DNA of 64,000 nucleotides from Acidobacteriota bacterium (GTDB lineage Bacteria > Acidobacteriota > UBA6911 > RPQK01 > JAJDTT01): positions 1 to 64,000 of the forward strand of contig JAJDTT010000037.1 in assembly GCA_022827025.1 (NCBI GenBank), written 5' to 3'. The position numbers and the translations under genes were made by a program. Below the pieces are notes generated by a model that saw nothing but the letters and a program-made list of their open reading frames with translations, searched no databases and had not been told where the DNA came from. Position 1 is the stretch's first letter, and each line of letters starts with the position of its first letter. This document shows, piece by piece, positions 27,607 through 37,558 of the stretch.

Positions 27607-28326
27607 TTACCGCAAACCACCCGAATTCGGTTTTCGGCCCAGGTGAAGGCACGCGATCCCCGCGGACAGGGTTCGGTGGCGGATCTCATGGAACCCCGCC
27701 TTCCCCAGCAACCGGTCCAGATCCTCGGGCGCCAGGAACTGCCGCACCGAGCGGGAGAGATAATCGTAGGCCCGACCGTGTCCCGTGATCCAACCGCCCA
27801 GCCGGGGCAGGACCCGGACGAAATAGAACAGGTAGATCGACCGGAACAGCGGAACCGTGGGGAGCGTGAACTCCAGGATGGCCAACACGCCCCGGGGGCG
27901 GAGCACCCGATGCATTTCCGCCAGACCCCGGCGGTAGCTCTCCAGGTTCCTCAATCCGAAGGCAATGCTGACGGCGTCGAAAGTCCGGTCCGGAAACGGG
28001 AGTCTCAGGGCGTCCCCTTCAGTGAATGAGATCCGGCGGCCGGCGGCGGAACGGGACGCTTTCTTCATGCCCAAAACCAGCATGGGATGAGCGAAATCGC
28101 ACGCCACCACCGAACCCAGGCTGGAGAGTTCCAGGGCCAGGTCCCCGGTCCCGGTGCAGAGGTCCAGGATCCGCGGGTCCGGCGGCAGCCGGCCTTCCAG
28201 CTCGCGCCTCGTCAGCCGTCTCCAATACCGGTCCACGGACAGCGAGAGAAGACGGTTGGCCCGGTCGTATCGGGGGGCAATGGCGCCGAACATCCGGCGG
28301 ATCCGCCCCGGTTCCTTGTCCCCCAT
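27607..28326 (-). CDS. ubiE: Demethylmenaquinone/ubiquinone methyltransferase
   Basis: A 239-residue class I SAM-dependent C-methyltransferase (UbiE/MenG) that performs the last step of menaquinone synthesis. Motifs: MFGAIAPRYDRANRLLSLSV, the SAM-binding ILDLCTGTGDLALEL, ACDFAHPMLVLGMKK, EGDALRLPFPDRTFDAVSIA, FGLRNLESYRRGLAEMHRVL. ATG 28326 is chosen because the family starts just before RIRRMFG. Convergent with the pseudopilin operon (12 bases apart). aroB lies 26 bases upstream on the same strand. Confidence 0.93.
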   Translation of the reverse strand: MGDKEPGRIRRMFGAIAPRYDRANRLLSLSVDRYWRRLTRRELEGRLPPDPRILDLCTGTGDLALELSSLGSVVACDFAHPMLVLGMKKASRSAAGRRISFTEGDALRLPFPDRTFDAVSIAFGLRNLESYRRGLAEMHRVLRPRGVLAILEFTLPTVPLFRSIYLFYFVRVLPRLGGWITGHGRAYDYLSRSVRQFLAPEDLDRLLGKAGFHEIRHRTLSAGIACLHLGRKPNSGGLR

Positions 28327-28352
28327 TTGAATCCCTGGAATCTGCGGCGTGC

Positions 28353-29444
28353 CTACTTCAGTTGCTTCACCTGATCCCAGGCCCGCGCCAAGTCCCGGTC
28401 CGGGATGTCGTCCCGGATTTCGGTGATCCCGATCGCCGCCAGCAACACCACAACCGTGCGTTGATTCCGGCGTTTCTTGTCCCGCTTCATGGCCTCCACG
28501 ACGCGGCTCGTGGGCACCGCATCGATGGCGGGCAAAGGGCCGATCTCCCGGATCGACTGCACCGCCCGGTCGCGTGACTCCCGAGACAGCCCGGTGCGCC
28601 AATGCGAGAGATGAGCCGCGGCCATCATTCCGTAAGCTATCGCCTCCCCGTGGGTCACCCCCTCAAATCGGACGGCGGATTCCAGTCCGTGGCCGAAGGT
28701 GTGCCCCAGGTTCAGTATTCGCCGCAGATCCGATTCGCGCTCGTCCCGGGCGGTGACCTCGGCCTTGATCTGGCAGCAGCGCCGGATCAGCCGCTGCATC
28801 ACCGGGGCGTTCCGGGCCTGGATCTCTTCCAGCGACGCGTTCAGCCAATCGAAGAATCCGGCGTCCCGGATGAGGCCGTACTTGAAAACCTCGTAGAGTC
28901 CGGACTGAAACTCCCGCTGAGGCAAGGAGAGGAGGGTCTCGGGATCGATGCAGACCAGGCTCGGCTGCCAGAAGGAACCGACCATGTTCTTGGCCAGGCC
29001 GTGATTGACTCCGGTCTTGCCTCCGACCGAACTGTCCACCTGAGCCACCACCGTCGTCGGGATCTGAATGTAAGGAATTCCCCGCATGAAGGTGGCGGCG
29101 GCAAATCCGGCGATGTCCCCGGTCACGCCGCCCCCCAGGGCCACCAGGGCCGAGGAGCGATCCGCGCCCCCGCTCACCAGCTGCCCGTAGATCTGCTCGA
29201 CGGTCCGAAGCGTCTTGTGGGACTCACCGTCCGGGATCAGGATTTCCGACACCCGGAACCCGGAGTCCGCCAGACCCCGCATCAGCGTCCCGCCGTAGAG
29301 TTCGTGGACCGCGGGATTGGAGACCAGGAACAGCCTCCGGGCCGTCTTGCGGTCTCTCAGCAGCTTCGGGAAATCGGCCAGGAGACCGGAACCGATCAGG
29401 ATGTCATAGCTGCGGCCGGGAAGGCTGACCTGAACCGTCTTCAC
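28353..29444 (-). CDS. aroB: 3-dehydroquinate synthase
   Basis: A 363-residue AroB, second enzyme of the shikimate pathway, using NAD+ and a divalent metal. Signatures: IPDGESHKTLRTVEQIYGQL, LVALGGGVTGDIAGFAAATF, PYIQIPTTVVAQVDSSVGGK, TGVNHGLAKNMVGSFWQP and LNLGHTFGHGLESAV (metal histidines). Full length. It sits between thiSG and ubiE on the minus strand, 87 bases after thiSG; shikimate supplies menaquinone and aromatic amino acids. Confidence 0.95.
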   Translation of the reverse strand: MKTVQVSLPGRSYDILIGSGLLADFPKLLRDRKTARRLFLVSNPAVHELYGGTLMRGLADSGFRVSEILIPDGESHKTLRTVEQIYGQLVSGGADRSSALVALGGGVTGDIAGFAAATFMRGIPYIQIPTTVVAQVDSSVGGKTGVNHGLAKNMVGSFWQPSLVCIDPETLLSLPQREFQSGLYEVFKYGLIRDAGFFDWLNASLEEIQARNAPVMQRLIRRCCQIKAEVTARDERESDLRRILNLGHTFGHGLESAVRFEGVTHGEAIAYGMMAAAHLSHWRTGLSRESRDRAVQSIREIGPLPAIDAVPTSRVVEAMKRDKKRRNQRTVVVLLAAIGITEIRDDIPDRDLARAWDQVKQLK

Positions 29445-29531: not shown

Positions 29532-30515
29532 CTAACTCAACACGCCTTCCAGGGGACTGCTGGCCGTGGCGTAGAGCTTGCGGGGAATTCGTCCCGCCTT
29601 GTAGGCCAGTCGGCCCGACTCCACGGCCAGCTTCATGCTCCTGGCCATGGATACGGGATCTCTGGCGCCGGCAATCCCGGTATTCATGAGGACTCCGTCC
29701 ACACCCAGCTCCATGGCCAGGGTGGCGTCGGAAGCGGTCCCGACTCCGGCGTCGACGATGACGGGGACCGAGGCGAACTCCAGGATGATGCGGATGTTGT
29801 TGGGATTCTGGATGCCGAGGCCCGAACCGATGGGGGCGCCCAGCGGCATCACGGCCGCCGCTCCCTCATCCTCCAACCGCTTGCAGACGATGGGATCGTC
29901 GTTGGTGTACGGGAGCACCACGAATCCATCCTTGACCAGGACTCGCGTGGCGTCCAGCAGGGCCTCGTTGTCGGGAAAAAGCGTGCGCTCGTCTCCGATC
30001 ACCTCCAGCTTGACCAGATTCGACAGGCCCGCCTCCCGGCCCAACCGGGCGTATCGGATCGCCTCGGCCGCCGTGTAGCAGCCGGCCGTGTTGGGCAGCA
30101 GTCGGTAGCGTTTGGGGTCGATGTAGTCCAGGAGCGATTCCCGGCTGCGGTCGGAGATATTGACGCGCCGCACGGCTACCGTCACCATCTCGGCTCCGCT
30201 GGCCTCCAGGGCCTGCTCCATCTGGCTGAAGGTCGCGTACTTCCCCGTTCCCACCAGCAAGCGGGAGCGATACTCGCGTCCGGCTATGGTCAACGTATCT
30301 TCCACGGCCCCTCCTCCCACGAAATGGACGATTTCGATCCGGTCGCCGCTCCGGATCTCCTGCCCGGCCCACCGGTTGCGGCGGACGATCCGCTCATTGA
30401 CCTCAACCGCGACCCGGCCCCCGTCAAGCTCCAGATCCTGAACCAGATCCGCCACGCTGCGGCCCGGTTCCACCTGGTGCTTCAGGCCATTCAAAAGGAC
30501 TTGGATCTTGCCCAT
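29532..30515 (-). CDS. thiG: ThiS-ThiG fusion (sulfur carrier plus thiazole synthase)
   Basis: A 327-residue protein. Residues 1-69 are a ThiS ubiquitin-like sulfur carrier ([20 protein letters not shown] ... EIVHFVGGG), and residues about 70-327 are ThiG ([20 protein letters not shown]; Schiff-base lysine about K169 in [43 protein letters not shown]). The ThiS Gly-Gly end, normally a free C-terminus that carries thiocarboxylate sulfur, is continuous with ThiG with no stop between. The protein must be cut after GG or use another sulfur route. No TPP riboswitch pattern was found upstream. Other thi genes are absent here. Confidence 0.93.
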
Positions 30516-31984: not shown

Positions 31985-32911
31985 CTAGCGCAACAGATAC
32001 GCCAACGCCAAACCGACTTGGGCCGTCAGGGTCAGGAGATACATCTGCCGCCAACTGGGATGGTTCTCCCAGTCCAATTTCCCCTCCCATTCCCGGGAGG
32101 ACCTCACGAGCAGCCGGATGATCCAACCGCCCCAACCGGCGAGAAGCAGTCCCAGGCCCGCCAGCAGCGACGGCTGTCCGGACAGGAGCCCGAAGACCGC
32201 GCCGGGGACGAGGGCCAGAAACGGCAGGACGAAGAAAGGAGCGATGATCCGGATCGACCGGCGCACGCCATAGATGACGGGAAGGGTCCGGCAGCCGCCC
32301 CGCCGGTCTCCCTCCACGTCGGAGAAGTCCTTGGTGGTGACGGCCCCCAGGAAATAGACGCCCAGGATCGCGCCGAGAACCCAGGGCTCCGGCTGCAGCA
32401 CATGCTTCACGGTGGACCAACCGGCCACCGGCAGCAGCGTTCCCCGGACCAGGGCGATGGTCAGGTTGGCCCAGACGCCCCGGGACTTGGTCCGAATCGG
32501 AGGCACCGAGTAGAGGAAAGTTCCCAGCGCGCCTCCCAGAACGACGAAGAAACACTGGAGATTGATCCAGGCGGCCAGCAGCAGGGCGATGCCCAGGAAG
32601 GCCACGCTCAGGCACCAGGCTTCCGGCCTGGAGATGCGTCCTGACGGCAGCAGGCGGCGAGGCTTGTTGATCCGGTCGATCTCCAGGTCGAAGATCTGGT
32701 TGAGGCCGTTGGAAAAGGCGTTCAACGCCGCCGCCAGAACGGCCCCGGCCACGATCCGCAGGATGATTCCCCCGGCCCCCGGACTCCAGTCGGAAACCCC
32801 TTTCGGATCCGCTGAGAGTCCCATGAGGGCGCCGCAGACCATCCCCAGCGCCGGCACCAGGAGGGTGAAGGGTCGGATGAACCGGAAGTAACGGACGATG
32901 GATTCAGACAT
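31985..32911 (-). CDS. UbiA-family prenyltransferase
   Basis: A 308-residue polytopic prenyltransferase, moving an isoprenoid from its diphosphate to an acceptor in the membrane. Both Asp-rich sites are present: N71-x3-D75-x3-D79 (NQIFDLEIDRINKPRRLLPS) and D195/D198/D202 (TTKDFSDVEGDRRGGCRTLP). The second motif and YSVPPIRTKSRGVWANL resemble the chlorophyll synthase/homogentisate phytyltransferase/DGGGP synthase branch more than UbiA or MenA proper. ATG 32911 is used. It is 93 bases downstream of a phytol-kinase-like/DUF92 fusion, suggesting its prenyl donor comes from that enzyme. Acceptor unknown. Confidence 0.82.
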   Translation of the reverse strand: MSESIVRYFRFIRPFTLLVPALGMVCGALMGLSADPKGVSDWSPGAGGIILRIVAGAVLAAALNAFSNGLNQIFDLEIDRINKPRRLLPSGRISRPEAWCLSVAFLGIALLLAAWINLQCFFVVLGGALGTFLYSVPPIRTKSRGVWANLTIALVRGTLLPVAGWSTVKHVLQPEPWVLGAILGVYFLGAVTTKDFSDVEGDRRGGCRTLPVIYGVRRSIRIIAPFFVLPFLALVPGAVFGLLSGQPSLLAGLGLLLAGWGGWIIRLLVRSSREWEGKLDWENHPSWRQMYLLTLTAQVGLALAYLLR

Positions 32912-33004
32912 GACGCGGCGGGCGCACTGCTTCGAGTCCCGGAGGACATGGACAACCGGCAACGATCCCGTGCCGTGGTGACCCGGTCCGCGCCGATCCG
33001 TTTC

Positions 33005-34336
33005 TCAAGGGGTTGCCGGTGAACAAAAAAGGATCCAGATTCCGCCGCTGACGCAGGCTCCCGCCAGCGAATTGTACAAGTTGAGCACCTGGTGCCGGCC
33101 CGGGGCATCCCGTCCGGCGCCGGCCAAACAGGACTCGATTCCATTCCCCGCACTGGCTCCGGCTGCCGCCGCCGCCAGCGCCGACGCAGGGACCCAGCTC
33201 CACAGGACCGGAACCGACGAAACCGCAAGGGCCGCGGCCAATCCCGCCAGAGTTCCTGCGAGTGAAACGGCGCCGGGGGTCCCTACCGGCACCGGTTTGA
33301 AGGAGCGGAGATCCCGGGGAGACCGTCCCAACCACTGCCCGATCTCGGTGGCGACCGTGTCCATGGTGGCGGCGGCCAGGGCGCCGGTGTAGGCCACCCG
33401 CAACACGGTGCTGTCGGTCCAGAAAAACAAAAACGCCAGGATGCCGGCGACCAGACCCTTGGACAACACGTTGCCCACGCCTCTCCGTCCCAGATTTTCT
33501 TCCGCGACCCCCAGCGCCTCCTTGTGTCCCATCCCCAACCAGGTGCTGAACCCGCCCAGGAAGAAGAAGCAGCAGAGGACGGTGTAGCCCGCAGGACCCG
33601 CCGAGAGAAAAACGCCGATCCCCAGGACCACGCCGACGGCAGCGCCGCGCCAGGAGATCCAACCCACCATCACGGCGAGGCCGGCCAGAAGGAAGTTGAT
33701 TCCGACCGCGTGGGACCAGGGCGCGGCCAACTCGGGAATCAGGTCGGGGACGCCCAGGAGCAAGGGGAAGACCCCGGCGCCCACCACCACGATGACCAGG
33801 TTGTCGTCCACCAGATTCGGCAGCGACTCGGCCAAGGCGCAGACCAGGGACCCGAAGAGGCAACAGGCGGCCAGCTTGAGATTGGAACCTCCGTCGGCTT
33901 GCGGCAGATTCCAGACCAGGAGGGTCCAGGATCCCACCGCCGCCGCCAGGAAAAAGCCGATGGAACCCCCCAGGCTCTTCTCCCGATTGTAAGGGAGCGG
34001 GACCCAGGGCCACCGCCGCCCCGCCAGGTTGGAAACCGCGTCTCCCACCGCCAGAACCGCCCAGACCGCCGCCGCGACGTGAAGGCGCTCCCGAAACAGG
34101 AGAAGCAGCATCATGATCCCGAAGGCGTAGTAGAGCTTGCCGGGGGAAAATCCCGTTTCCCGTTCCGATTCCCGAGTCGTCACCCGGATCCAACGGGGCG
34201 AGATGAACGCGGCGTAGAAGAATGAAAAGAGGCTCAGGAGAAGGATCAGGCCGTAGTCCACGTAGGGAAGGAGAAAGGCGAACGCCAGGGGCAGCACATG
34301 TTCCAACTGCCTCAGGTCTTCGCCTTTGTCCCTCAT
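33005..34336 (-). CDS. Phytol-kinase-like / DUF92 (phytyl-phosphate-kinase-like) fusion
   Basis: A 443-residue, very hydrophobic two-domain protein. The N-terminal half resembles phytol/dolichol kinases (VTE5 type): AVGDAVSNLAGRRWPWVPLP, YNREKSLGGSIGFFLAAAVG. The C-terminal half is DUF92, the family of plant VTE6, which makes phytyl diphosphate from phytyl phosphate: NVLSKGLVAGILAF, ALAAATMDTVATEIGQWLGR, PVPVGTPGAVSLAGTLAGL. Together the domains could turn a free prenyl alcohol into its diphosphate. The start chosen, ATG 34336, overlaps the epimerase stop as ATGA. The UbiA enzyme follows. Activity is inferred from homology only. Confidence 0.78.
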   Translation of the reverse strand: MRDKGEDLRQLEHVLPLAFAFLLPYVDYGLILLLSLFSFFYAAFISPRWIRVTTRESERETGFSPGKLYYAFGIMMLLLLFRERLHVAAAVWAVLAVGDAVSNLAGRRWPWVPLPYNREKSLGGSIGFFLAAAVGSWTLLVWNLPQADGGSNLKLAACCLFGSLVCALAESLPNLVDDNLVIVVVGAGVFPLLLGVPDLIPELAAPWSHAVGINFLLAGLAVMVGWISWRGAAVGVVLGIGVFLSAGPAGYTVLCCFFFLGGFSTWLGMGHKEALGVAEENLGRRGVGNVLSKGLVAGILAFLFFWTDSTVLRVAYTGALAAATMDTVATEIGQWLGRSPRDLRSFKPVPVGTPGAVSLAGTLAGLAAALAVSSVPVLWSWVPASALAAAAAGASAGNGIESCLAGAGRDAPGRHQVLNLYNSLAGACVSGGIWILFCSPATP

Positions 34337-35256
34337 GACTCCAGCCACCGGTTCGTGCGGATCAAGCCCTCCTCCAGGGAGCGGGGCGAGTAACCGAGAT
34401 GGGCGCGGGCCTTGCCCGAGGAAAATCGCCAGTTCCGGAGAAAGAACTCCGCCGTCGACGGGACCAGCAACGGCGACTTGCGCCGCAGCCGCGCGCTCCA
34501 GTCCTCCAGCCGGGCTGCGGCGCGAAACAGCCCATCGGGAAGACCCAGGGGAACGATCGGCTCATTCGCAACCCTCCGGAAGGTCGCCCACAGGTCCCGG
34601 AGCGTCCGGTTTTCGCCTCCCAGGACGAAGTCCTCCCCGGGGTCGGCATCCAGGCATCGAATCAGGGCGTCGGCGACGTCGTCCACATAGACGAAGTTCC
34701 AACAAGGAGCCCCCCGGCCCGGTAATGCCGCCATGCGAAGCTTCTTCCAGCGCCGGAGCAGCCGCACCAAAAGGTTTCCCTCGGTCATCGGGCCGGGGCC
34801 GTACACGACGGTGGGGAAGACCGTGTTCATGGGGAGCCGGCCCTTCCACCGGTCGGCCAGTCGAAAGGCCTCGTATTTGCTCCGGTCGTACCCGTGGAAG
34901 AATCGGTTGCGGTCCGGTATGCGTTCCTCGGTATGGACCCCGTCGCCGCTGGGGCCGAAAACGGTGAACGAGGAGACGTGGACCAGCCTGGCAACTCGAT
35001 GGCGCCGGGCCAGTTCCAGGACATTTCTCAGTCCGTCGACGTTGACCCGAAGGAACGGTCCGGGCCGGGACTGGACCAGGGCGGCCAGGTGAAACACCAC
35101 CTGGACTTCCCGGAAGCTCGGCTCCAAGGTGGGGACGCGGGTCACATCCTGGCCCCGGGACCGCGAAGCGACGGTCACGTCGTGCCCCCGTTCCCGGAGC
35201 CTGCGTACGAGAACGCTCCCCAGGAAGCCGGTCCCGCCCGTAACCAGGCACCTCAT
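34333..35256 (-). CDS. NAD-dependent epimerase/dehydratase (extended SDR)
   Basis: A 307-residue extended short-chain dehydrogenase/reductase. The nucleotide-binding loop is G7-GTGFLG-13 (MRCLVTGGTGFLGSVLVRRL), the active-site serine is in HVSSFTVFGPSG, and the Tyr-Lys pair is in YDRSKYEAFRL. The middle has FPTVVYGPGPMTEGNL and NFVYVDDVADALIRCLDAD, as in sterol/hopanoid- and sugar-modifying members. ATG 35256 overlaps the preceding stop as ATGA, and the end overlaps the DUF92 fusion the same way, so all three are coupled. A lipid or polyprenyl-linked substrate is a guess from context. Confidence 0.85.
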   Translation of the reverse strand: MRCLVTGGTGFLGSVLVRRLRERGHDVTVASRSRGQDVTRVPTLEPSFREVQVVFHLAALVQSRPGPFLRVNVDGLRNVLELARRHRVARLVHVSSFTVFGPSGDGVHTEERIPDRNRFFHGYDRSKYEAFRLADRWKGRLPMNTVFPTVVYGPGPMTEGNLLVRLLRRWKKLRMAALPGRGAPCWNFVYVDDVADALIRCLDADPGEDFVLGGENRTLRDLWATFRRVANEPIVPLGLPDGLFRAAARLEDWSARLRRKSPLLVPSTAEFFLRNWRFSSGKARAHLGYSPRSLEEGLIRTNRWLES

Positions 35257-37235
35257 GGCGAGTCGAACGACCAGGCGCGGCCGTCCAGCGGTTCGGGGTC
35301 CTCGACCCGAAACAACCGGTACAGAGTCGGGGCCACGTCCATGAGGTGCGGGTTCTCCGCGAGAATCGTTCGATTGGAGACCGCGAAACCCTCGGTGTCC
35401 GAAGGATCGGAAGCACAGTGGTCGCCGCTCCATTTCCTGAGGTTGGCGACGAGGACGTGCTCCGGCACGGCGCCCAGGGCCGTCTGCCACGAGGTCCGGT
35501 AACCGGTTCGGAAGCTGAGCTGGATGTCCCCGGCATGCTCGATTTCGTCGCCGGAGTAGATCTCGTCCCTGAAATAGGCGTTCTGCACCACCGATTCTCC
35601 GGTTTCCGGGTCGCGATACTCAAGGATCTCCCGAGAAATGTCCCGGATCAGGTCGATGTAGTCTTGGCCGGGATCGACGGCGCCCTGACCCTCCCGCCCC
35701 TTCAGGTTCACGTAGATATGGCCCAGGCCCAGGGCATACGCTTGGGTCCGGCTCCAGTCCACGTTGGGAAAGAAGCTGCCGCCCCGATAGACCTGCTCCA
35801 TCCGTTTCATTTCGGTGCCGGACTGTCCGTCCTTGAGGCGCAGGTATCCGTTCTCCAGGAGCCAGGTATTGGTATTGAATTCCTTGCGCCAGGAATGAAA
35901 CCCGTGATCGGAAAGCACCAGCAGCAGATCCTGGGGATCCAGGCGCTCCAGGACCCGTGAGACGATGGAGTCCATCTTCCGGTAGACGTTCAACAGGGCC
36001 CTGCCATAGGCCTGAGCGCCCTTCGCGTCATAACGGGGATGGTGGGGATCGATGAAGCGGTAGAACATGTGGGCGGCGCTGTCGGTGGCGGTGAAGACGG
36101 CCGTGTACAGGGACGCCTCATCCCGGTCCAGCTCATGCATCAGGAGCCGCTCCAGGTGGTTCATGTTTCGGAAGAGGTCCTCCAGAAAAATCTGTTCGTC
36201 GATCTGCTCCTCGTTGAGGCCCCAGGTCTCATGGATCCAACCCAGGGTCTTGAACGGGGCGAGCCAGGAGACGAGGTCCTCCGAATAGCTGGCCGGCGTC
36301 GAGAGTGGCAGGACGGGGTCGGCCGGATCGAGGCTGATGGGCATCAGATAGAGCCTCACTTCGGGGAAGGTCTCCAGGACATAGAATCGGCTGATTCCCC
36401 GTATCTTGACCAGGGGTCCCGCGGAAAATTCGAACCGGAACCAGTCGCTCCACTGCCCCTCGTCGACCTCCTCTTCCTGGTCCTGGAGCCGGATCGTCAG
36501 GGCAGTCGACTGGGGGTCCAACTCCACCGACAGCGGGATCGTCAGACGAACCAGCTCCTCCTCTCTGGGGTCGGCGGGTCCGTCGATCAGCGCTTGAAAA
36601 CGTCCGTCCTCTCCTTCCAGGCGAATCACCCGGCCGCCGAACTCCGTGTCCTGCAGGTCCCAGCGGCTGACGTCGGTGGAGAGATAGAAGTAGGTGCCCC
36701 AGGTCCCCCGGACGTCGGGAACCCCGAGCCCCGAAAGCGTGGTCCCATGGTCCAGGGACCGGGGCGGGAACTCCAGGGGGATCCGCAGGTTGGCGGTGAC
36801 GATGCCGGCCCGGTCCAGGTGCTCCCAGAAGGGGACGCCCTTGCGGTTGTTGGTCAACCGGGCTCCCCGGATGGGGATGGTCTTGAACAGAAAGCGGGGC
36901 TTTTCCACCTTCACGAGGCCGATGTCGGGCATGTAGGTGGCGGGGTCCCGCCGGAGAAAGTCGAAGATTCCGTGGCGGCCCGGATTGAGTCCGGTGGCGA
37001 AGCTGGCCCAGGCCACGGGGGATTCGGGCGGATTGGTGGTGCCCAGGGTCGACAGGGTCCCCTGCTCCCCCAGGCGGCGGATGGTGGGAAGCTCTTCGAT
37101 CCATTGATCCACCAGATCGGGGTCCACGCCGTCGAAGCCCAGGATCACGACCTTGAAGCCGGGGCGCTTGGGGGCAGGTGTACAGAATGAGCCCAGCAGG
37201 ACCATCAGAACGAGCGCCAGCCGGGGGAAGATCAC
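35253..37235 (-). CDS. Alkaline-phosphatase-superfamily phosphodiesterase/nucleotide pyrophosphatase-like protein
   Basis: A 660-residue exported protein (hydrophobic N-terminus IFPRLALVLMVLLGSFCTP) of the type I phosphodiesterase/alkaline phosphatase superfamily. Metal-site motifs: VILGFDGVDPDLV, the nucleophile region PPESPVAWASFATGLNPG, TATDSAAHMFYRFIDP and LVLSDHGFHSWRKEFN, with GDHCASD near the end. The sulfatase C/S-x-P-x-R signature is absent. The start is GTG 37235, overlapping the UPF0175 stop as GTGA. The family acts on phosphoesters, including lipid-linked ones. It heads the coupled run to the epimerase and DUF92 genes. Confidence 0.82.
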   Translation of the reverse strand: MIFPRLALVLMVLLGSFCTPAPKRPGFKVVILGFDGVDPDLVDQWIEELPTIRRLGEQGTLSTLGTTNPPESPVAWASFATGLNPGRHGIFDFLRRDPATYMPDIGLVKVEKPRFLFKTIPIRGARLTNNRKGVPFWEHLDRAGIVTANLRIPLEFPPRSLDHGTTLSGLGVPDVRGTWGTYFYLSTDVSRWDLQDTEFGGRVIRLEGEDGRFQALIDGPADPREEELVRLTIPLSVELDPQSTALTIRLQDQEEEVDEGQWSDWFRFEFSAGPLVKIRGISRFYVLETFPEVRLYLMPISLDPADPVLPLSTPASYSEDLVSWLAPFKTLGWIHETWGLNEEQIDEQIFLEDLFRNMNHLERLLMHELDRDEASLYTAVFTATDSAAHMFYRFIDPHHPRYDAKGAQAYGRALLNVYRKMDSIVSRVLERLDPQDLLLVLSDHGFHSWRKEFNTNTWLLENGYLRLKDGQSGTEMKRMEQVYRGGSFFPNVDWSRTQAYALGLGHIYVNLKGREGQGAVDPGQDYIDLIRDISREILEYRDPETGESVVQNAYFRDEIYSGDEIEHAGDIQLSFRTGYRTSWQTALGAVPEHVLVANLRKWSGDHCASDPSDTEGFAVSNRTILAENPHLMDVAPTLYRLFRVEDPEPLDGRAWSFDSP

Positions 37236-37558
37236 TCCCGATTCTCCAGACTGCCGTGGATGACCCCCAAGTCTCGTTTCAAATCTTCGAGATCGTATTG
37301 AGCCGATACCTTCCTGGCACGGGCATAGTCGATCATTTCCCACAACGAGACTCCGGCATCCCGAGCCGCTCGTGCCAGCGTAACCCTTCCCTCACCGTAC
37401 TGACGGACGTAGTGCTCAAGCTTCCAGTGCCGGATACCTCTCGACAGCAGCCGGCGCACTGTCGTCGAGCGATCACACTGTTCGACGTCTTCGATGAGTT
37501 CCAGCTCGCGGACCAACTCCGAGGGAACCCGCGCACCCACCATGTACTCCTTTCTCAT
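37232..37558 (-). CDS. UPF0175-family protein (orphan antitoxin-like)
   Basis: A 108-residue protein. An N-terminal RHH-like segment (VGARVPSELVRELELIEDVE ... TTVRRLLSRGIRHW) is followed by a UPF0175 helix-turn-helix-type domain: YGEGRVTLARAARDAGVSLW, MIDYARARKVSAQYDLEDLK. UPF0175 proteins are usually antitoxins paired with a PIN-like (DUF3368) toxin. Here no toxin follows; its stop overlaps the start of the phosphodiesterase gene (GTGA). It may be an orphan antitoxin reused as an operon regulator. Confidence 0.72.
   Translation of the reverse strand: MRKEYMVGARVPSELVRELELIEDVEQCDRSTTVRRLLSRGIRHWKLEHYVRQYGEGRVTLARAARDAGVSLWEMIDYARARKVSAQYDLEDLKRDLGVIHGSLENRE

Follow-up and report, generated by a model that had tools for sequence, protein, structure and literature searches.

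What might a bacterium make with two predicted prenol-activating kinases joined in one protein and encoded close to a prenyltransferase of the UbiA superfamily? The question is raised by a locus in a stretch of 64,000 nucleotides from an Acidobacteriota bacterium (NCBI GenBank assembly GCA_022827025.1, contig JAJDTT010000037.1, positions 1 to 64,000; the window from here on), the host genome being 5.3 Mb in 318 contigs and 98.8% complete. An original prediction, made from the sequence of the window, read a row of minus-strand genes here as a system for activation of a prenyl alcohol and its transfer by UbiA, and this has proved right in kind, as judged from domains, gene order and co-occurrence across genomes, whereas phytol as the substrate, a UPF0175 gene as a member and the function implied by the name 'epimerase' found no support. 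In our assessment it is rather probable that four of the genes, encoding a phosphodiesterase-like protein (PDE), a short-chain dehydrogenase/reductase (SDR), a VTE5-like/DUF92 fusion and UbiA, serve one pathway, in which a bifunctional kinase would feed a dedicated prenyltransferase to give an undescribed prenyl lipid.

By assignment, VTE5 is the phytol kinase and VTE6 the phytyl-phosphate kinase (PMC5694494, PMC9782597), and a review from 2022 noted that few prenol or prenyl-phosphate kinases had been identified, all of them from plants and cyanobacteria (PMC9782597). No paper on the present bacterial module was found in the open-access literature. The five minus-strand open reading frames (ORFs) that had been predicted, their order, their GTGA and ATGA overlaps and the 93-base gap were all confirmed in the sequence. 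The PDE gene (35253-37235, 660 amino acids, GTG start) shares a GTGA with the UPF0175 ORF before it (37232-37235) and an ATGA with the SDR gene after it (35253-35256); the SDR gene (34333-35256, 307 amino acids) shares a further ATGA with the fusion (34333-34336); and 93 bases (32912-33004) lie between the stop of the fusion (33005-34336) and the start of UbiA (31985-32911, 308 amino acids).

The C-terminal half of the fusion (residues 205-443, 33005-33724), a predicted prenyl-phosphate kinase, is assigned to the DUF92/VTE6 family. It matches PF01940 at 125.9 bits against a cut-off of 27.5 (E 2.2e-36; in the Pfam scan of the whole ORF, DUF92 at 2e-36 over residues 214-404 only), the same domain being matched in 19 of 19 members of the fusion family, and it scores 115.4 bits (E 3e-33) with TIGR00297, under that model's cut-off of 205.9. 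We take COG1836 to be this same DUF92 family. A genomics-based prediction across plants and prokaryotes has placed COG1836 in phytol-phosphate metabolism (PMC3223725).

The N-terminal half (residues 1-204, 33725-34336) is a predicted prenol kinase, and neither Pfam nor NCBIfam gave a CTP_transf_1 match in this half across the 19 fusions scanned. Three other results nevertheless assign it to the CTP_transf_1 family, as a diverged member of the VTE5/dolichol-kinase-like kind: the fusion of a related genome, G011, clears the PF01148 cut-off (28 against 24 bits); a standalone N-half in a Krumholzibacteriota locus (L075) matches PF01148 at E 5e-4, under the cut-off; and the N-half alignment matches an alignment of 25 CdsA sequences in hhalign (probability 95.4, E 1.9e-8) over the GD..G...G...K..G...E core, with UbiA, used as a membrane-protein negative control, reaching a probability of 0.3-0.5%. 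In 35 aligned fusions the N-half pattern GD......G.............K...G....E.......DN is invariant or nearly so. The C-half also aligns with CdsA (probability 91, E 1.1e-6), and the two halves align with each other (62%, 7.5e-5) with their catalytic cores in register. The AlphaFold (AF2) model of the fusion has a predicted local distance difference test score (pLDDT) of 89, and its best VIA-align neighbours, over the C-half, are CarS (5guf, Z 8.5) and CdsA (4q2e, Z 7.4); a profile search of the PDB with the fusion returned no match. The simplest reading of these comparisons is of two tandem domains that would use cytidine triphosphate (CTP), one VTE5-like and one VTE6, and the proposal that both are fused in one ORF is supported by the PF01940 and CdsA profile matches. 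The archaeal CarS and bacterial CdsA are CTP-dependent cytidylyltransferases that appear to share this fold and catalytic core, by profile and structure for the C-half and by profile for the N-half; they differ in that they make cytidine diphosphate (CDP)-lipids, whereas the VTE5 and VTE6 families are kinases or are assigned as such.

UbiA matches PF01040 at 155.2 bits against a cut-off of 34.2 (2.5e-45 in Pfam), and carries the two Asp-rich motifs NxxxDxxxD (residues 71-79) and DxxDxxxD (residues 195-202), both of which are found in 11 of 11 aligned members. With the family profile (alignment A3) six PDB entries matched at E 0.001, being DGGGP synthase (digeranylgeranylglyceryl phosphate synthase, 1.6e-29), chlorophyll synthase (2.6e-25) and UbiA structures, with DPPR synthase not among them. 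With NCBIfam, the ChlG, PRK12884, BchG, homogentisate phytyltransferase (HPT) and DGGGP synthase (DGGGPS) models score 82-123 bits on the window protein, all under their cut-offs: 122.9 bits for ChlG (cut-off 313), 103.7 for HPT (226) and 89.6 for DGGGP synthase (296). The quinone models (UbiA, MqnP, MenA) come behind ChlG, PRK12884, HPT and DGGGPS, at 27.7 to 66.4 bits and below their cut-offs. From these scores the protein is best placed in a separate family, on the ChlG/HPT/DGGGPS side of the superfamily, in keeping with the phytyl/digeranylgeranyl type first suggested; the grouping with 4-hydroxybenzoate or menaquinone enzymes that had been named as counter-evidence did not appear in the profile scores. 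A tree with ChlG, DGGGPS, AfUbiA, MqnP, CyoE and EboC had long branches, was unresolved and was not used. Three further UbiA-superfamily genes occur in the host, one MqnP-like, one EboC-like (contig C97) and one identified as CyoE by neighbourhood and sequence; the first matches MqnP-type models at 247-326 bits, so the quinone role is already filled.

Do these genes belong together beyond the window? In a sample of 60 genomes of the phylum, the host and 59 relatives, the UbiA family was found in 20, every match being at E 1e-118 or better and nothing else passing 1e-25. The fusion or its parts occur in all 20 of these genomes and, in any form, in 7 of the 40 others, several of which have only one half (Fisher p 2e-10, uncorrected for relatedness; by taxonomic family, 12/12 against 5/16). 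In eight of these genomes (G006, G008, G011, G012, G043, G047, G048, G051) the fusion is on one contig and UbiA on another, so linkage alone does not explain their co-occurrence. The PDE follows the same distribution: in a tree of 48 PDE proteins the window protein falls in a clade (21 rows, support 88/74) apart from a clade of tandem paralogues, and its clade is present in 18 of the 20 genomes with UbiA and 2 of the 40 without (p 4e-11). At one locus (L134) a PDE of this clade stands head-to-head with UbiA.

Gene order tells a similar story. The first alignment, A1, was too diverse for a scan of contigs, and the UbiA alignment was taken in its place, the best 80 of 211 relatives being kept; the scan was seeded with two UbiA motifs, which makes their conservation among the matches partly circular, NQxxDxxxD not being a seed. 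Record titles place the UbiA relatives mostly in Acidobacteriota, with others from Krumholzibacteria, Eisenbacteria, Coatesbacteria, Wallbacteria, Nitrospinota, Omnitrophota, Planctomycetota and elsewhere. Among these best 80 of 211, 35 loci have DUF92 as the same-strand neighbour of UbiA; where at least 1.5 kb of upstream sequence is available the count is 30 of 64. An N-half is fused to DUF92 in 22 of the 35, and the SDR accompanies it in 14. Copies from the same genus are about 90% identical with the order unchanged, and the order SDR, fusion, UbiA recurs in other classes and phyla; the conservation of gene order that was to be checked therefore held in Acidobacteriota and beyond. In two loci of Krumholzibacteria (L061, L075) separate ORFs run on one strand in the order UbiA, AcpS, N-half, SDR, C-half. 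Since the order recurs and the genes co-occur when unlinked, the gene set is a real module and more than a chance row. As separate observations, the ORF between UbiA and the standalone N-half in L061 (10009-10389) and L075 (10869-11297) resembles AcpS (holo-ACP synthase), and in seven Acidobacteriota loci (L081, L093, L098, L102, L105, L107, L115) a standalone DUF92 comes directly before UbiA and a glyA-like gene follows, the first Asp-rich motif of these seven UbiA proteins departing from the pattern of the others.

The PDE (Pfam Phosphodiest 9e-32) is classed by fold and by its metal and nucleophile motifs as an NPP-like protein of the alkaline-phosphatase superfamily. By profile, ENPP1/2 are its closest relatives of solved structure, its AF2 model (pLDDT 89) matches ENPP1 and a bacterial NPP (Foldseek E 1e-11), and the motifs GFDG, NPPESP, TD...H, SDHG and GDH are invariant or nearly so. 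Because it has an N-terminal signal sequence, and many relatives have lipobox-like motifs (e.g. LAGC, LSGC), it is probably an exported lipoprotein acting outside the inner membrane. Elsewhere in the family, distant members of the PDE-A clade (L186, L187, L189-L193) have an extra hydrophobic, membrane-spanning-like insert after about residue 117 in the numbering of the window PDE (alignment A5), and tandem pairs of paralogues, about 39% identical to the window PDE, occur at L183, L184, L194-L200 and L204, in Acidobacteriota genomes mostly without the UbiA family; these paralogues form two sister clades, roughly one for each tandem position. The SDR has the motifs TGGTGFLG and YxxxK and matches Pfam Epimerase (5e-33) and 3Beta_HSD (8e-21); its score with NCBIfam HpnA (TIGR03466) is 126.9 bits for the window protein and 217-245 bits for relatives, below the cut-off of 367.7. 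It is assigned as an NAD(P)-dependent, HpnA/3-beta-HSD-like enzyme that falls below every curated cut-off, so that what remains of the former 'epimerase' is an SDR with a Pfam Epimerase domain, the name giving its family and not what it does. In other classes and phyla, too, it is found beside the fusion.

A mechanism that would accommodate these assignments starts from the fusion as a bifunctional membrane enzyme with two CdsA-fold domains in tandem, in which the N-half would convert a prenol to the prenyl phosphate and the DUF92/VTE6 half would convert this to the prenyl diphosphate, with CTP, from homology, as the probable phosphate donor. The diphosphate, probably of short chain (C15-C20), would pass to the dedicated UbiA, which would couple it to an acceptor to give the undescribed prenyl lipid. 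A short-chain donor is suggested by G051, where the gene immediately upstream of UbiA is of the farnesyl-diphosphate (FPP)-synthase type (276.4 bits against a cut-off of 275). In a cytoplasmic step the SDR may modify either the acceptor or the prenyl product, and the NPP-like lipoprotein may act on a phosphodiester, of the product or a precursor, outside the inner membrane, the place of both in the order of steps being our conjecture. The prenol might come from phytol in the environment or from the recycling of geranylgeraniol or farnesol.

Several observations weigh against this reading. UbiA and the fusion are non-adjacent in about half of the loci, DUF92 stands next to UbiA with no N-half beside it in the seven loci named above, and an FPP-synthase neighbour was seen at one locus only. 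In the window protein, fusion residues 1-205 gave no Pfam domain, being too diverged, and the proposed phytol-kinase-like identity therefore needed relatives and profile comparison. For a helical protein the Z values with CarS and CdsA are modest, and Foldseek with the fusion alone gave nothing below 0.001, so that the fold assignment rests on the profile result. The basal support of the window PDE clade is moderate (88/74), and the SDR is tied to the module by position alone.

Were the acceptor aromatic, homogentisate-like or another phenol, the product would be a prenylquinone or a chromanol-like antioxidant and the kinases would salvage phytol or geranylgeraniol. Salvaged phytol feeds tocopherol in plants (PMC5694494), and motif 1 (GLNQIFDLEIDRINKP) and the HPT model, at 103.7 bits, give a fit little worse than that of ChlG at 122.9. 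We hold this to be unlikely, with UbiA under the HPT cut-off of 226 bits, tocopherol cyclase (PF14249) in 0 of the 20 genomes with UbiA and only in two without it, and a separate MqnP-like UbiA in the host for quinones, its other two being CyoE-like and EboC-like; a tocochromanol pathway was rejected on the first two of these grounds. The neighbourhoods of some loci, read from their ORFs, point elsewhere, to envelope sugars: the SDR lies beside sugar-nucleotide and envelope genes, with a heptosyltransferase-like gene at L043, nucleotide-sugar SDRs at L046/L047/L048 and exopolysaccharide genes at L061/L075. The fusion might then phosphorylate long polyprenols such as undecaprenol, and a UbiA like the mycobacterial Rv3806c, of the DPPR synthase type, would transfer phosphoribose from phosphoribosyl pyrophosphate (PRPP) to the polyprenyl phosphate, with the SDR epimerising the sugar and the PDE trimming it. 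Such a pathway appears rather unlikely: its chemistry needs no second, diphosphate-making kinase domain, DPPR synthase is missing from the six A3 matches in the PDB, and a short-chain synthase neighbours one UbiA.

The best structural neighbours of the C-half, CarS and CdsA, make CDP-lipids, which raises the prospect that the DUF92 half is a CarS-like cytidylyltransferase with the fusion taking a prenyl lipid alcohol through its phosphate to a CDP-lipid. UbiA, which resembles DGGGP synthase, would make the prenyl ether earlier and the PDE could act on the head group. Plant genetics of DUF92/VTE6 point instead to a phytyl-phosphate kinase (PMC9782597, PMC5694494), in the operon we saw no CDP-alcohol phosphatidyltransferase, and no convincing geranylgeranylglyceryl phosphate (GGGP) synthase was found; we regard this proposal as quite unlikely. 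The lack of a convincing GGGP synthase, which archaeal lipids require, bears also on the idea that UbiA is a true DGGGP synthase making sn-glycerol-1-phosphate diethers, as proposed for bacteria of the Fibrobacteres-Chlorobi-Bacteroidetes (FCB) group. Both archaeal synthases are encoded by FCB bacteria (PMC7852524) and DGGGP synthase is the best PDB match of the UbiA profile; set against this, PcrB is absent from the host, the genomes with UbiA yielded one marginal match (G008, 24.9 against 23.9 bits) and two fragments below the cut-off, and the DGGGP synthase model reaches 89.6 of the 296 bits of its cut-off. A canonical archaeal diether lipid was accordingly rejected and the archaeal-type lipid set aside as very improbable. 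Hardly credible, too, is a coincidence of unrelated housekeeping genes in a compact genome with no shared pathway. Start-stop overlaps are common in bacteria, and UPF0175 looks like just such a neighbour, but the order recurs across classes and phyla and the genes co-occur when unlinked; for the fusion and UbiA coincidence is refuted, and for the SDR the case is weaker.

A role in chlorophyll synthesis was rejected, UbiA being under the ChlG cut-off and BchH being absent from the genomes with UbiA save for one fragment of 117.8 bits in G011. On the same absence of BchH nothing singles out phytol, the substrate first envisaged, and phytol from the environment is a possible source of the prenol. 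A candidate for geranylgeranyl reductase on contig C52 was better fitted by halogenase/monooxygenase models and was not counted. The phytol salvage of plants and cyanobacteria (VTE5, VTE6, then VTE2/HPT or ChlG) is alike in using sequential kinases of the same two families with a UbiA from the ChlG/HPT/DGGGPS side; here, by contrast, the kinases form one protein, whose gene is found with those for an SDR and an exported NPP-like PDE, the hosts are without tocopherol cyclase and chlorophyll genes, and UbiA is under the ChlG and HPT cut-offs. DGGGP synthase is the closest solved structure to UbiA by profile, and the differences are that UbiA is far under its cut-off and has no GGGP synthase partner.

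The Ebo cluster (EboC, a UbiA protein, with EboE and others) is likewise a cryptic bacterial operon in which a UbiA is combined with a protein of the phosphodiesterase type. The UbiA of the module is distinct from it, at 60.7 bits against an EboC cut-off of 250, and the host has its separate EboC-like gene on C97 (L034), where an EboE-like TIM-barrel ORF adjoins it.

It is conceivable, and we put it forward tentatively, that Acidobacteriota, Krumholzibacteriota and other phyla that are largely uncultured use the fused kinase, UbiA, the SDR and the exported PDE to make a prenyl lipid or cofactor of a class not described before, one that has no part in chlorophyll, tocopherol, respiratory quinones or archaeal-type lipids. 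If this holds, the bifunctional enzyme, found in bacteria together with a prenyltransferase dedicated to it, would offer a tractable single polypeptide for prenol activation, and the module would mark genetically an isoprenoid lipid so far unseen in major bacteria of soils and sediments, with a bearing on lipid biomarkers and on the reuse of chlorophyll-derived phytol. The 20/20 coupling of UbiA and the fusion makes the hypothesis directly testable.

The remaining ORF of the row, UPF0175 (37232-37558, minus strand; Pfam UPF0175 8e-9), had been counted as an operon member and has been dropped. Among three relatives of the same genus it is intact in L037, a two-frame match in L035 and absent from L036, and because it is intact in only one of the three it is a local neighbour outside the module, between it and the divergent nuo genes. 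Elsewhere in the window, the ORF at 29532-30515 has a ThiS N-terminus (NCBIfam thiS 2.4e-20) followed by a ThiG-like part and reads as a ThiS-ThiG fusion; aroB and a UbiE/MenG methyltransferase follow in the same direction, an order kept in the genus only. The UbiE-type methyltransferase at 27607-28362 has as its fourth-best NCBIfam model MpqE, of methyl-plastoquinone biosynthesis (194 bits, cut-off 335).

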